From contig JAENZP010000010.1 in NCBI GenBank assembly GCA_016841205.1, forward strand, positions 1 through 64,000: DNA of 64,000 nt, in the 5' to 3' direction. The notes under the pieces were generated by a model. It was not told the origin of the DNA and did no database searches. It was given only the letters and a program-made list of their open reading frames with translations. This DNA is from Desulfoscipio geothermicus (GTDB lineage: Bacteria > Bacillota > Desulfotomaculia > Desulfotomaculales > Desulfallaceae). Shown one piece after another: positions 10,727-56,216 of the stretch. Each line of letters begins with the position of its first letter. Within the stretch, counting starts at the first letter, position 1. The position numbers and the translations under genes were made by a program.

Positions 10727-10762
10727 GGTATTTATTTAAAAACATCCAATTTCTCCGCTAAT

Positions 10763-10930
10763 CTCTCCGATCCAAACTTACCTAAAGCACTAAAGCTAGG
10801 GCTTGTTGGACTACAGGGTGTGCCGGGAAACCAGTGCGCCTTCTGTTAAGAAAAGGAGAGCTGAGCTTGTAGGCTATGCCGGGCAGCTTTGCTTTTCGCA
10901 AATTTGATCCGGTAATTTATTTTTTTTTTA
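10763..10930 (+). promoter_or_regulatory. Moco-like riboswitch candidate with terminator, copy A
   Basis: CTCTCC (10763-10768) pairs with GGAGAG (10855-10860) as the closing helix. Inside lies the shared core agggtgtg, ggGAAAcc tetraloop stem, then cgcct and gAAAAGGAG. A terminator (ccgg...ccgg, 10879-10913, then a long T run) follows, so ligand binding would probably switch expression off. The core matches what I recall of the Moco RNA family, which binds molybdenum or tungsten cofactor. Structured leader: strong evidence. Moco identity: moderate. Confidence 0.65.
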
Positions 10931-17027: not shown

Positions 17028-17072
17028 AAATTTATCTAAACGTATAAGTTGTTTTTTTCATGCACTTAATAA

Positions 17073-17217
17073 TATCCGAGTCTTTTTGCCTGTGGTTGCA
17101 ACAGCTATGGTTGAAGACCTGTAGGGTGTGTTTGGAAACGGACCACGCCTCCCATTGTGGAAAGGATCGCTGTTTGCATTTGTATGCCGGGCGCGGTTTC
17201 CCCGTTCCCGGTTTTTT
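17073..17217 (+). promoter_or_regulatory. Moco-like riboswitch candidate with terminator, copy B
   Basis: ATCC (17074-17077) pairs with GGAT (17164-17167). The core is agggtgtg, then a GGAAAC tetraloop stem, then cacgcctccc and gtgGAAAGGAT. A terminator (gccggg...cccgg plus six Ts, 17186-17217) follows. It precedes a MolB/FecC-type importer, a fitting target for a molybdenum-cofactor switch. Confidence 0.65.
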
Positions 17218-29705: not shown

Positions 29706-29857
29706 GCTCAAAAAAAGCCGGGCACGAATAAATATCACCCGGCGTTTAAGCAGCCAAATAATATCCTTTCCGCAACGGGAGGCGTACCCGTTTCCAGCCA
29801 CACCCTAACGGTCCGTTTGCCATTGCCATAAAGGCCACAGGCAAAAAGACTCGGATA
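29706..29857 (-). promoter_or_regulatory. Moco-like riboswitch candidate with terminator, copy C
   Basis: Read on the minus strand: ATCC (29853-29856) pairs with GGAT (29763-29766). The core agggtgtg (29799-29806) is followed by the GGAAAC tetraloop stem, tacgcctccc, then GGAAAGGAT. A terminator (gccggg...cccggc plus seven Ts, to 29706) ends it. It controls the MoxR-DUF58-transglutaminase operon and is closest in sequence to copies B and D. Confidence 0.65.
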
Positions 29858-29880
29858 TATATTTATTAATTAAATACAAA

Positions 29881-30171: not shown

Positions 30172-30201
30172 TAAAATTTATACAGTTATTAAAATTAAAT
30201 A

Positions 30202-30350
30202 CTTCCGAGTCTTTTGACCTGTGGCTATTCTTGGCTATGGTAAAGGGCCAAAGGGTGTGGCTGGAAACGGGCACACCTCCCAGTGTGGAAAGGAAAGAAC
30301 CGATGGTTTATTAGCTGGGTTGCGCGATTTTTGCTTCCCGGCTTATTTTT
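30202..30350 (+). promoter_or_regulatory. Moco-like riboswitch candidate with terminator, copy D
   Basis: TTCC (30203-30206) pairs with GGAA (30292-30295). The core is agggtgtg, ctGGAAACgg, gcacacctccc and gtgGAAAGGA. A terminator (agctggg with cccggct, then tattttta) follows. It lies 190 bases before the first of three large surface-protein genes. Confidence 0.6.
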
Positions 30351-39153: not shown

Positions 39154-39179
39154 ATTTACCTAATAAAACACATTGTAAT

Positions 39180-39333
39180 CTCTCCGAGCCAGCTTACCTA
39201 AAGCCCTATGCTATGGTTGTTGGATGACAGGGTGTGCCGGGAAACCAGTGTGCCTTCCATTGTGAAAAGGAGAGCTGGGCTTGAAACTTCGCCGGGCCAG
39301 CTTTGTTTTTCGCAAAGTTGCCCCGGTTTTCTT
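39180..39333 (+). promoter_or_regulatory. Moco-like riboswitch candidate with terminator, copy E
   Basis: CTCTCC (39180-39185) pairs with GGAGAG (39269-39274). The core agggtgtg (39229-39236), cggGAAAcca, gtgccttcc and GAAAAGGAG is near-identical to copy A. A terminator (ccgggccagctttg with caaagttgccccgg, then ttttcttt) overlaps the false upstream start of the next ORF. Confidence 0.7.
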
Positions 39334-52765: not shown

Positions 52766-53389
52766 GTGTATCTTCCTGATGAGGTGCTGGTCCGGAAAAC
52801 CATAAATGGCGACCTGGATGCATTTGATGAACTGGTGCGCCGCTATGAAGGTAAGATATATGGTTTGGCTTACCGCTTTATGGGTAACCATGCTGACGCC
52901 AGTGACCTTGCCCAGGATACTTTTATACGCGTTTATCAGGCGCTGGCCGGGTTTCGGGGGGATGCTTCTTTTTCTACCTGGCTTTACCGCATTGCGGCAA
53001 ATATTTGCCGGGACGAGCTCAGAAAGAGGCAGCGGCGGCGCAGTGTTTCTATTGATGAAATGATAGACGCTTCACCGGCCAATGTGCCCACTGCCGATGG
53101 CAGCTATTCACCTGAGGAGACTGTGCAACGGCGCGAGGTGCAGAGCCAGGTGCAGTTTTGTTTAAACGAGCTCTCCAGTGACCACCGGTTGGTTTTGGTA
53201 ATGCGTGAAATACAGGGATTAAGCTATGAGGAAATTGCCAGTGCATTACAGTGTTCAATGGGCACGGTGAAATCACGTATAAGCCGGGCCAGAAGCGCGC
53301 TTAAGGATAAGATGATTAAGGAAGGGGAACTTTTATCAAGTAGCGATCGTCTTAACGCAAAAGGGGGGAAGACCAATGCAATGTCGTAA
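52766..53389 (+). CDS. ECF RNA polymerase sigma factor (SigW-like)
   Basis: 207 aa, GTG start after gggagtga. Region 2 is clear (DLDAFDELVRRYEGKIYGLA, AQDTFIRVYQAL, FSTWLYRIAANICRDELRKR) and region 4 reads LSYEEIASALQCSMGTVKSR. A linker of about 30 residues separates them. Its 3' end overlaps the start of the anti-sigma gene by 14 bases, so the two are made together. Confidence 0.92.
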   Translation: MYLPDEVLVRKTINGDLDAFDELVRRYEGKIYGLAYRFMGNHADASDLAQDTFIRVYQALAGFRGDASFSTWLYRIAANICRDELRKRQRRRSVSIDEMIDASPANVPTADGSYSPEETVQRREVQSQVQFCLNELSSDHRLVLVMREIQGLSYEEIASALQCSMGTVKSRISRARSALKDKMIKEGELLSSSDRLNAKGGKTNAMS

Positions 53390-54635
53390 TATCTGTGAAA
53401 TGTTGTCACCGTACATTGATGACATGCTGGAATCTTCCCAGGTTGTTGAGGTGGAGGAACACATTGCTGTCTGTGCGGCGTGCAGGCTGGAATATGACAA
53501 ATTGCGAGCTGCTGTGGAGTTGGTTAGAGGGTTGCCGGAGGTGCTACCGCCTTCGGAGTTCCATGAAGATTTGCTTCAAAAACTACAATCGTTACCCGCA
53601 CATTCTGTTACCGACAGCCCAACCGTTTGGATCCGTCGGCTGGCCTGGGGGAAATGGTCTAAGACATTGGCTGTCGCAGTGGTACTGTTTCTTACCATAG
53701 GGGTCACCGCCTTTTGGTATGGTAATAAGGAGGGTGGGTTACCTGGTTCTGCGTTCCAGCTAAGTGTCGGTCAAAATATAGATGACCGGGGCGAACGGTA
53801 CGGGGGCGATGCAGGAGATGATGGGCGGGATTTGGAAACTGCCCAAAAGACTGCCAAAAATGCTCAAGAACAAACTGCTAAAGATACAAAAGCAACGGAG
53901 CAAGTTGAGACGGAAAAAAATGCGGCCAGGGATCAGGATACAGGCCAAGGAAATTTGGCTGCGCCTGGTGTATCCGTGTCTAACAAACAGCTTGCTGTTT
54001 CAAGAGAGACTGGAGAAGAACCTGTGACTGCCGCGGGCGACGACAACCCGGGTTCAACTGCTGCCGGAGGGGATCAGGTGTCCCGTGATTTGGTCGCGCT
54101 GGAGGGAAAGCCGGTTGGTGATGATTCCCTATTCAGTATGATGGCCGCACCCCGGGATGATTTAGGGGATGTCGCCATAATGGAAAATAATAGTCTTCCT
54201 GCGGCTACGGAGTTAACTGCTACACTGACGTTAAATACCCAGCCAAATGCAGTGACCGACTGGAGTGCAACAGCGGGCAGGTACGGTGGCTTTGTCGAAA
54301 CTGAGCCGCAGCAAACCGGGGAGTACTGGGTGTTACGTGTTCCCACTGGCAATGTGGACGGGTTTATAAAGGAATTAAACAATTTAGGGCAAGTGGACAT
54401 TCAATCAAACACCAGGGATATAGCTGTTGATTTAAAACGGGCTGAAGAGCGGTTAAACATGCTGCAGGAACAGGAAAAAGCGCTGGTAGCGCAGGGGGCC
54501 GGGCAAACGGAAAGCGATGCCGTCGGTACAGCCGAGTTGGATGCACTGCGTGAGCAAATAACTTTGCAGCAGCGGGCCCTAGAGGAGTCGCAGAAAGATG
54601 TTAATTTTGCCAAGATTAATCTTTATGTAAAATAA
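53376..54635 (+). CDS. Zinc-finger anti-sigma factor with DUF4349 domain
   Basis: 419 aa. The N-terminal ZAS motif is EEHIAVCAACRLEY (His29, Cys33, Cys36), which captures group IV sigma factors. One membrane segment (about 96-113, TLAVAVVLFLTIGVTAFWYG) leads outside to a low-complexity Glu/Thr/Asp stalk and a C-terminal DUF4349 domain (about 275-419) with a coiled coil (LKRAEERLNMLQEQEKALVA). The external part is the likely sensor of envelope stress. It partners the sigma factor before it. Confidence 0.88.
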   Translation: MQCRNICEMLSPYIDDMLESSQVVEVEEHIAVCAACRLEYDKLRAAVELVRGLPEVLPPSEFHEDLLQKLQSLPAHSVTDSPTVWIRRLAWGKWSKTLAVAVVLFLTIGVTAFWYGNKEGGLPGSAFQLSVGQNIDDRGERYGGDAGDDGRDLETAQKTAKNAQEQTAKDTKATEQVETEKNAARDQDTGQGNLAAPGVSVSNKQLAVSRETGEEPVTAAGDDNPGSTAAGGDQVSRDLVALEGKPVGDDSLFSMMAAPRDDLGDVAIMENNSLPAATELTATLTLNTQPNAVTDWSATAGRYGGFVETEPQQTGEYWVLRVPTGNVDGFIKELNNLGQVDIQSNTRDIAVDLKRAEERLNMLQEQEKALVAQGAGQTESDAVGTAELDALREQITLQQRALEESQKDVNFAKINLYVK

Positions 54636-54805
54636 ATGTCGGGCTGGTGTTAAGTAATAAAATGGTCGCAATTTGTTGGAATTAAAAGTTTTACTATTGC
54701 TTGGCTGGTAGATAACAGTTAAAATAGAAATAGTTAATGATTTGGCGGCTAATAATATTAATTTTTTATTGTTATAATATTTGAAGAAGGGAGGTTGAAA
54801 AAACA

Positions 54806-55030
54806 GTGCTCGAACAAGTACAAGCTGTTCTAGATAAAGTTCGCCCCATGCTGCAGCATGACGGTGGTGACGTCGAGCTTGTGGATGTTACACCTGATGG
54901 TGTGGTGAAAGTAAAACTTACAGGTGCCTGCGGCGGGTGAGCGATGTCCACCTATACCCTTAAAATGGGTATTGAGCGGTCGCTCAAGCAAGAAGTGCCC
55001 GAGGTGAAGGAAGTAATAGAGGTTCGGTAA
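54806..55030 (+). CDS. NifU C-terminal-domain (Nfu) protein, probable selenoprotein
   Basis: 74 residues if the in-frame TGA at 54938-54940 is read through. The GTG start follows gggagg. Before the [35 protein letters not shown] and LTGACGG. After it: [29 protein letters not shown] and TAA. Nfu proteins carry GACGGCPMST-TLKMGIE, so the TGA replaces the second Cys of CxxC exactly. Homology continues without frame change on both sides, as expected for selenocysteine (Sec45, paired with Cys42) and not for a decaying gene. Nfu dimers carry a [4Fe-4S] cluster through these residues. A stem-loop suited to a bacterial SECIS follows. The alternative is a sequencing error or a recent nonsense mutation. 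Confidence 0.78.
54941..54983 (+). promoter_or_regulatory. Candidate SECIS hairpin after the TGA codon
   Basis: Apical stem ATACCC (54954-54959) with GGGTAT (54967-54972) and a seven-base loop ttaaaat. A lower helix GCGA (54941-54944) with TCGC (54980-54983) encloses it. The position, 13-32 bases after TGA, fits bacterial selenocysteine insertion elements. Binding to SelB is untested. Confidence 0.5.
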
Positions 55031-55379
55031 ATTACTAACTGCGAGTTTACCTCGTATATTTATCGGTGTAAGTATTTTAATATAACCACTTTTTGCCATT
55101 GTATACTTGGTGGAAAGTGGTTTTGTGCATTTTGCCGGGCAACGTATATACTATTATTTTGCAGGCAGTATATCCATAATATAAGGGGCGGTTCCAACCT
55201 AATGTGCCATCGTAATTTGTATATGGAGTATTGAGAAGTGCGCAGCATTTATTATTAGCCTGGCGTCTAGCAGTTCCGGCGGATAAAATAAATTTCGTGG
55301 AAGACACCGGCGTTTGATTAGGTTAGCGGCGTTGGTTCAGTAATTAGCAAGGCAAGCTAAATGAAGGGTGGTTGTATTA
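55031..55379. other. Intergenic stretch, nothing recognised
   Basis: No ORF with a ribosome site and no clear hairpin. Frames on the minus strand here are unsupported. The ribosome site gaaggg of the next gene is at its end. Confidence 0.5.
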
Positions 55380-56216
55380 ATGGGTAAATGCAAGCTAGCA
55401 GTTGGCCAGATTAATGTCACCAGTGATAAAACATTTAATATAAGTCACGCCCGGGATATGGTGCGCCAGGCAGCCAGGCAGGGTGCGCAGGTGGTGTTGC
55501 TGCCGGAAATGTTTAACTGCCCTTACGAGACAAATTTATTTCCCGATTATGCGGAGTCTTACCCGAACGGGGAAACGGTACAAATGCTGTCCCGGGTGGC
55601 CGCCGAATTAGGCATTGTGTTGGTGGGCGGCTCTATACCTGAAAGGGAAGGGAACATTGTTTACAATACTTGCTTTATCTTTGGTCCGCAGGGTGACTTG
55701 TTAGGGCGGCACCGCAAGATGCACCTGTTTGATGTGGATTTGCCCAACTTAAATGTGCGGGAGTCCAGCACGCTGGGGCCAGGCGGAGAGTTCACTGTTA
55801 TAAATGCCGGGATATGTAAAATAGGCGTGATGATCTGCTTTGACGTGCGCTTTCCGGAATTGGCCCGCCTGCTGACCCTGGAGGGAGTAGATGTGCTGTT
55901 GATACCAGCGGCCTTTAATATGATTACCGGCCCGGCCCACTGGGATTTGACCATGCGGGCGCGGGCGCTGGATAACCAGGTTTACGTGGCGGCAGCCTCC
56001 CCGGCCCGTGATGACCAGGCGGAATATATAGCCTATGGCCATTCTATGGTAGTGGACCCCTGGGGTGATGTGGTAGTCCAGGCAGGTACCGGCGAGGAAA
56101 TTATTATGGCGGAAATTGACCCGGAAAAGATTCAAGATGTGCGCGAACGCCTGCCATTATTATCCCAGCGGCGCACTGATCTTTATGAATTATGTATAAA
56201 ACAGGTTGTTCGGTAA
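55380..56216 (+). CDS. Carbon-nitrogen hydrolase (omega-amidase/Nit2-like)
   Basis: 278 aa from the ATG at 55380 after gaagggtgg; a GTG at 55368 overlaps that box. The nitrilase-fold triad is visible: Glu43 in LLPEMFNCPY, Lys113 in GRHRKMHLFDVD and Cys153 in GVMICFDVRFPE. Similarity to Nit2 omega-amidase (which hydrolyses alpha-ketoglutaramate or ketosuccinamate) rests on the MHLFDVDLPN and MICFDVRFPELARLL blocks. No operon partner is visible. The exact substrate is not certain within this branch. Confidence 0.88.
   Translation: MGKCKLAVGQINVTSDKTFNISHARDMVRQAARQGAQVVLLPEMFNCPYETNLFPDYAESYPNGETVQMLSRVAAELGIVLVGGSIPEREGNIVYNTCFIFGPQGDLLGRHRKMHLFDVDLPNLNVRESSTLGPGGEFTVINAGICKIGVMICFDVRFPELARLLTLEGVDVLLIPAAFNMITGPAHWDLTMRARALDNQVYVAAASPARDDQAEYIAYGHSMVVDPWGDVVVQAGTGEEIIMAEIDPEKIQDVRERLPLLSQRRTDLYELCIKQVVR

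Follow-up and report, generated by a model that had tools for sequence, protein, structure and literature searches.

Desulfoscipio geothermicus possesses a gene for a stand-alone Nfu-type Fe-S protein, in which an in-frame TGA codon at the position of the second cysteine of the CxxC motif is almost certainly translated as selenocysteine (Sec), as judged from the codon, a downstream hairpin and the Sec machinery encoded in the genome. This protein, designated here as Sec-Nfu, is not a one-off: it is spread over one order and a second family of the phylum, and it appears to constitute an undescribed selenoprotein family that is common to dozens of related bacteria. Sec-Nfu probably acts as a [4Fe-4S] carrier of the Nfu type, and two Cys and two Sec residues would hold the bridging cluster. 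The gene was found in positions 1-64,000 of contig JAENZP010000010.1 (assembly GCA_016841205.1; genome of 3.38 Mb), and this stretch of 64,000 nucleotides is referred to as the window.

The Sec-Nfu gene and its product

The gene and its signals are located as follows.

54789..54794, plus strand: GGGAGG, Shine-Dalgarno-like, 11 nt 5' of the GTG start (direct sequence reading)
54806..55030, plus strand: Sec-Nfu gene with GTG start, 74 residues and TAA stop; motif G-A-C-G-G-U-A-M-S-T
54929..54931, plus strand: TGC codon for the first Cys of CxxU; always TGC or TGT among the 129 aligned genes
54938..54940, plus strand: in-frame TGA (codon 45), predicted Sec codon at the position of the second CxxC cysteine
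54954..54972, plus strand: upstream hairpin
54972..54987, plus strand: SECIS hairpin TTGAGC-GGTC-GCTCAA, inside the codons for I-E-R-S-L-K
54978..54981, plus strand: apical loop GGTC of the SECIS hairpin; GG in the 82 readable TGA genes

The frame from 54806 to 55030 is interrupted only once, by the TGA at codon 45, and a gene caller stopping at TGA would cut the gene short to 44 residues. With Cys written for U, the product matches the Pfam family NifU (PF01106) with an E-value of 1e-30 and 106.1 bits (cut-off 27). The match covers positions 1-67 of 67, that is, the entire model, and no second domain was found in the frame besides PF01106; the protein is thus a stand-alone Nfu domain. The best match in the PDB is the plant NifU-like protein 2 (2z51; E 5.5e-25), and another close solved relative is the NifU-like protein 1xhj (E 1.6e-19). 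In a scan against NCBIfam, no model was matched over its cut-off. The CxxU motif occupies the same position as the CxxC motif of the family and contains one cysteine instead of two. Moreover, a profile search with PF01106 across the 3.38 Mb of the genome returned Sec-Nfu as the sole match found (98.3 bits).

The first-pass annotation had described an Nfu-type protein with TGA at the second CxxC cysteine, and the PF01106 match together with the same TGA in 70 Nfu genes of the order confirms this description. It had also stated that conserved Nfu sequence flanks the TGA on both sides in the same frame and that a normal stop follows, in agreement with the PDB match and the terminal TAA.

TGA and cysteine codons in related genomes

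A protein search revealed Nfu in 109 of the 113 genomes of the order to which the window belongs. When three fragment rows of 137 were excluded, 51 of the 109 genomes had only the TGA form, 22 had both a TGA and a TGA-free form and 36 had only TGA-free forms. The matches of the order were fetched and codon-aligned. After removal of a row that consisted of the tail of a frameshifted copy in L073, 129 Nfu genes had both motif codons readable. Homologues with TGA or Cys at this site had been named as something to look for, and nothing else was encountered: the second motif codon is TGA in 70 genes and TGC or TGT in 59, and neither TAA or TAG nor a further sense codon occurs. It is only ever the second cysteine that is replaced in the 129 aligned genes, the first being always encoded by TGC or TGT. 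In the genus of the window, the TGA form is present in seven of seven genomes analysed. Outside the order, the TGA forms among the matches listed for 398 genomes across the phylum all belong to one family, f46, and a search of the 398 genomes for the TGA codon plus hairpin (see below) agrees with this.

The identical position of TGA in 70 of the 129 genes of the order argues against chance or a read error. With 70 gene records sharing this codon and the frozen hairpin, chance, a read error and a pseudogene are ruled out. An altered genetic code was also considered and is ruled out: TGA terminates seven of 40 long open reading frames of the window (a selection from 48, from which mostly overlapping ones were left out), so the code has not been changed wholesale, and the aligned residue is Cys in the other 59 genes.

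In 16 loci, one TGA and one Cys form of Nfu are neighbours a few hundred bases apart (L067, L072, L078, L079, L086, L087, L089, L090, L094, L095, L098, L099, L103, L110, L112 and L113), and two TGA copies are adjacent in L077 and L093. These 16 loci and the 22 of 109 Nfu-bearing genomes of the order with TGA and Cys forms offer ready natural comparisons. In L073 (G051, contig 57), the Cys copy of a neighbouring Nfu pair is frameshifted. This copy contains other stop codons, which the first-pass annotation had named as a sign against Sec when present in relatives, while the adjacent TGA copy is intact. None of the refuting observations named beforehand appeared against the Sec reading.

A protein tree (162 rows, 72 columns) requires at least 16 switches between Sec and Cys, of which the starred branches force only two. 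The tree is poorly resolved, and neither the direction nor the number of the switches suggested by these sequences is fixed by the supported branches.

A conserved hairpin downstream of the TGA codon

The putative SECIS hairpin begins 31 nt after the TGA, and 37 nt lie between the TGA and the loop. The string TTGAGC-GGNN-GCTCAA, with six pairs and a fixed spacing of 31 nt, is exactly present in 70 of 70 TGA genes of the order, the loops being GGTC (42 genes), GGGT (21), GGAT (5) and GGTT (2). Of thirteen further TGA genes, of which five belong to the order and eight to f46, 12 have the exact hairpin; the only exception, L155, has an N gap in the contig, and the total is 82 of 83. A conserved hairpin downstream had been suggested as a check of the Sec reading, and this one is kept exactly in TGA genes and absent from most Cys genes. 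By contrast, the hairpin that had originally been pointed out 13-32 bases downstream (54954-54972, 14 to 32 nt after the TGA) does fold here, but it is not a conserved element and was rejected as the SECIS, as relatives retain only its CC/GG core.

The conservation extends to synonymous sites. All 70 TGA genes use the codons ATT GAG CGG NNG CTC AAR for the hairpin, whereas the 59 Cys genes use many codons for the same residues, form the six pairs in five cases and contain the exact string in two; a second set of 23 Cys genes contains it in three. Elsewhere in the same 70 genes, CGG accounts for 40 of 221 Arg codons, CTC for 56 of 368 Leu codons, GAG for 112 of 399 Glu codons and ATT for 49 of 116 Ile codons. 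From this codon usage, the joint occurrence of ATT, GAG, CGG and CTC is expected at a frequency of about 0.003 per gene, and the freezing of the hairpin codons can thus not be attributed to codon bias. The hairpin is not wholly confined to TGA genes, since it occurs exactly in a few Cys-coding Nfu genes, namely L055 and L111 of the order as well as L137, L143 and L160. These genes may be recent reversals from Sec to Cys, or the match may be due to chance for any single one.

Searching 398 genomes of the phylum for a TGA followed by 31 nt and the hairpin yielded 24 places in 23 genomes, all of them in Nfu frames, and a reversed control pattern had no match in the same 398 genomes. Twenty-three of the 24 places correspond to Nfu genes among the listed matches of the protein search. 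The remaining one (G218, contig 164) encodes in frame U-G-M-A-N-T-T-L-K-Q-G-I-E-R-S-L and was recognised as Nfu by eye.

Selenocysteine decoding

The genome of D. geothermicus encodes the machinery for the synthesis and insertion of Sec; the coordinates are preceded by the contig.

C7:56780-58159: selA, 617 bits, over the cut-off
C7:58198-60087: selB, 375.6 bits, over the cut-off, directly 3' of selA
C6:81111-81205: selC (tRNA-Sec), 68.6 bits (gathering score 47)
C24:126799-127719: selD, 404 bits, over the cut-off, with an in-frame TGA of its own

The presence of selA, selB, selC and selD, which had been regarded as a prerequisite for the Sec reading, was thus established for all four, each above its cut-off. 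The tRNA-Sec model produced a second, marginal match of 48.3 bits elsewhere in the genome and weak signals at other places. In selD (L025, contig 24), the in-frame TGA is followed by a predicted 8-bp hairpin with a GTA loop, so selD is itself a predicted selenoprotein of a known kind.

SelB exceeded its cut-off in 109 of the 113 genomes of the order; for the phylum, the count was 263 of 398. Among the phylum genomes with a TGA-containing Nfu gene in the matches listed, 21 of 22 have SelB over the cut-off, and the exception, G375, is an 84% complete genome with a tRNA-Sec of 72.7 bits. Outside the order, 122 genomes have a TGA-free Nfu among the matches listed, and SelB was over the cut-off in 74 of them and not in 48. 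A Fisher test of 21/1 versus 74/48, which covers the genomes among the matches listed, excludes G017 and the extra TGA copy in G218 and ignores kinship, gives a p-value of 0.001. Thus, the TGA form of Nfu goes together with Sec decoding, and many Sec-decoding genomes keep Cys. Altogether, the selenocysteine interpretation of the first-pass annotation is strongly supported at the level of the sequence.

Genomic neighbourhoods

The immediate neighbours of the gene in the window are the following.

53376..54635, plus strand: anti-sigma-factor-like protein (no family cut-off reached), upstream neighbour; related gene upstream in 54 of 110 loci
55368..56216, plus strand: nitrilase-like amidase (no family cut-off reached), downstream neighbour; related genes downstream in 38 of 110 loci

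Upstream of the window copy, a sigma-70 ECF factor is encoded together with the anti-sigma-like protein, and the nitrilase-like amidase downstream is accompanied by YchF. The neighbourhood survey comprised 110 loci and extended up to 1.5 kb to either side. The nitrilase-like neighbours amount to 39 genes in 38 loci, 29 of them in the same direction as Nfu and ten in the opposite direction.

In 28 of the 110 loci, a gene of selenium metabolism is located within 1.5 kb of Nfu: LysR in 14 loci, YedF in nine, SelD in eight and selB in five. Representatives match NF040786, a selenium metabolism-associated LysR family (297.5; cut-off 250), TIGR03527 for YedF (209.1; cut-off 110) and TIGR00476 for SelD (274.4; cut-off 125); the selB neighbours were identified from coordinates, and the LysR, YedF and SelD genes other than the representatives were assigned by blastp clustering only. 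Relative to Nfu, LysR and YedF-SelD are convergent and selB has the same direction. No selenium-metabolism neighbour of the window's own Nfu gene was found. The apparent selenium link seen in these gene arrangements is therefore present in three sets of lineages and is not universal.

In L068, L071, L074, L085 and L088, the Cys-Nfu gene of one branch lies directly 5' of a codirectional SelB-family gene, and several of the genomes concerned have a second selB elsewhere. Upstream in L088, the minus strand encodes a protein with a below-cut-off match to the C-terminal part of HdrA2; its frame continues into an ArsR-type helix-turn-helix-like stretch (also below the cut-off).

Elsewhere in the window, five Moco/tungsten riboswitches (RF01055; 56-74 bits) are present within 64 kb.

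10753-10874, plus strand: Moco/tungsten riboswitch
17062-17183, plus strand: Moco/tungsten riboswitch
29747-29868, minus strand: Moco/tungsten riboswitch
30191-30311, plus strand: Moco/tungsten riboswitch
39170-39288, plus strand: Moco/tungsten riboswitch

The genes directly 3' of the riboswitches appear to encode a CobW-type protein followed by an ABC ATPase, a BtuC-like permease (below cut-offs), a MoxR-type AAA ATPase, an S-layer-domain protein and a CCG/4Fe-4S protein, and no obvious molybdenum enzymes are among them.

Proposed function of Sec-Nfu

In the NFU family, the CXXC motif at the interface of a homodimer binds an Fe-S cluster, which is of the [4Fe-4S] type in AtNFU4/5, as described in PMC7939391. 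For Sec-Nfu, the following course of events is proposed. SelB would recognise the in-frame hairpin at 54972-54987 and bring Sec-tRNA(Sec) to the UGA at 54938-54940, and the ribosome would insert Sec and continue to the normal TAA. The product would work like other Nfu proteins, forming a homodimer whose subunits share one Fe-S cluster, most likely [4Fe-4S], held between their CxxU motifs, and handing this cluster on to apo-proteins. Two Cys thiolates and two Sec selenolates would serve as the four ligands, and in genomes with a tandem Cys copy, mixed dimers could arise in which three thiolates are combined with a single selenolate. The likely gain from Sec may be an altered stability or potential of the cluster or an easier reductive recovery of the ligand. 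We infer the Cys2/Sec2 ligation from the position of the motif, the retained first Cys and the interchange of Sec and Cys among relatives. Furthermore, the genome search found no second Nfu domain, suggesting that the usual Nfu task falls to the Sec form. On these grounds, it is rather likely that Sec-Nfu is an Fe-S carrier with Sec as a cluster ligand. More tentatively, it can be envisaged that the mobile [4Fe-4S] cluster is held by selenolates (Cys2Sec2, or mixed with tandem copies), that the choice of Sec or Cys tunes its release and that the gene is coupled to the supply of selenium, whereby the selenium status would control Fe-S delivery.

Many selenoproteins are homologues of thiol oxidoreductases or contain redox motifs, among which CxxU is named in section 7 of PMC13188914. 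A redox role is therefore a serious rival to cluster ligation, if an unlikely one: Sec-Nfu would be a true selenoprotein for redox reactions or chalcogen transfer, in which a selenylsulfide of the CxxU motif forms and breaks and no cluster is held, for instance to reduce persulfides or oxidised cysteines when Fe-S clusters are assembled or repaired. The replacement of only one cysteine throughout the 129 aligned genes, as in redox pairs, and the selenium-metabolism genes within 1.5 kb of Nfu in 28 of 110 loci are consistent with such a role. However, Sec-Nfu retains the Nfu domain with its two ligand positions, the Sec and Cys forms interchange among relatives, and in the genome of D. geothermicus (G000) no other Nfu domain was found that could carry clusters.

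The same neighbours (LysR 14, YedF 9, SelD 8 and selB 5 in the 28 loci) could also indicate that the Nfu protein of the order belongs to selenium metabolism, where it would participate in supply or sensing and where the UGA would make its own production dependent on selenium, with the Sec form at ample selenium and a 44-residue stub otherwise. This explanation is improbable, since LysR and YedF-SelD are convergent with Nfu and hence not part of one operon, the selB neighbours are Cys forms, the gene of the window lacks a selenium neighbour and the loci within one family are not independent. Finally, a real stop at the TGA, due to a pseudogene or a sequencing error or yielding a functional 44-residue fragment, would fit the ordinary use of TGA as a stop elsewhere in the window (7 of 40 long frames), but it has next to no probability and is refuted for the Nfu family as a whole by the recurrence of this TGA, ahead of a conserved frame, in 70 of 129 genes from many genomes, by the 3' hairpin frozen at synonymous sites and by the complete Sec machinery.

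Comparison with known systems

Neither Nfu nor NifU is contained in the table of an inventory from 2026, which covers 119 families and subfamilies of prokaryotic selenoproteins (PMC13188914), and the words NifU and Nfu do not occur in the available text of PMC13188914, PMC12013277, PMC9312934, PMC1794560, PMC5029168, PMC2398784, PMC1914089 and PMC1242214. A selenoprotein survey from 2006 attributes eight selenoproteins to D. reducens, none of which is entered as an Nfu (PMC1794560). Among the articles listed in a search of mainly open-access literature, no Nfu selenoprotein was found by title and opening of the abstract, and no Nfu case was found among the articles listed on Sec-ligated Fe-S clusters (including PMC10779653). 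Sec-Nfu would thus add a widespread selenoprotein family to the 119 of the inventory.

The HesB-like family is related to Fe-S cluster biogenesis, and its selenoprotein is, like Sec-Nfu, a Sec form of such a family. It is listed in the table of the inventory as TIGR01911 with the motif UxGP (PMC13188914). However, it is of the HesB/IscA type, whereas Sec-Nfu is of the Nfu type with another motif, and TIGR01911 is absent from the five families that were returned for Sec-Nfu by the NCBIfam scan up to an E-value of 10. The table also includes the Fe-S cluster domain-containing selenoprotein NF005503 and CopZ-like (2Fe-2S)-binding selenoproteins (PMC13188914). By their table entries, these are selenoproteins named as Fe-S cluster proteins, as would apply to Sec-Nfu, but they belong to other protein families, and none is entered as an Nfu-type carrier.

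According to the model in the legend of Fig. 2 of PMC13188914, a bacterial SECIS has a loop of 3-9 nt with G in the first two positions, a stem of 4-16 bp, a distance of 16-37 nt from the UGA and an energy of -7.5 kcal/mol or lower. The Sec-Nfu element resembles this canonical form in its shape, with a 4-nt loop starting with GG (GGTC), a 6-bp stem and a location in frame 3' of the UGA. It differs in that its spacing of 37 nt is at the upper limit and that the energy of the 18-nt hairpin alone (-7.1 kcal/mol) lies just beyond the limit; a 54-nt segment including the upstream hairpin reaches -13.7 kcal/mol. As the element lies at the edge of the standard model in spacing and energy, it may have been missed by model-based searches. 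The SECIS element of E. coli carries a bulged U, whereas the 6-bp stem of Sec-Nfu is without a bulge.

The closest known system is the PF01106 family itself, including AtNFU2 (2z51), AtNFU4/5 and 1xhj. Sec-Nfu matches the entire model and retains the ligand positions and their flanks, but its second ligand would be Sec instead of Cys, and its gene contains an in-frame UGA and an internal SECIS. Sec would thus sit at a cluster-ligand site in a general Fe-S carrier instead of a dedicated enzyme, providing a natural test of a selenolate on a transferable cluster.
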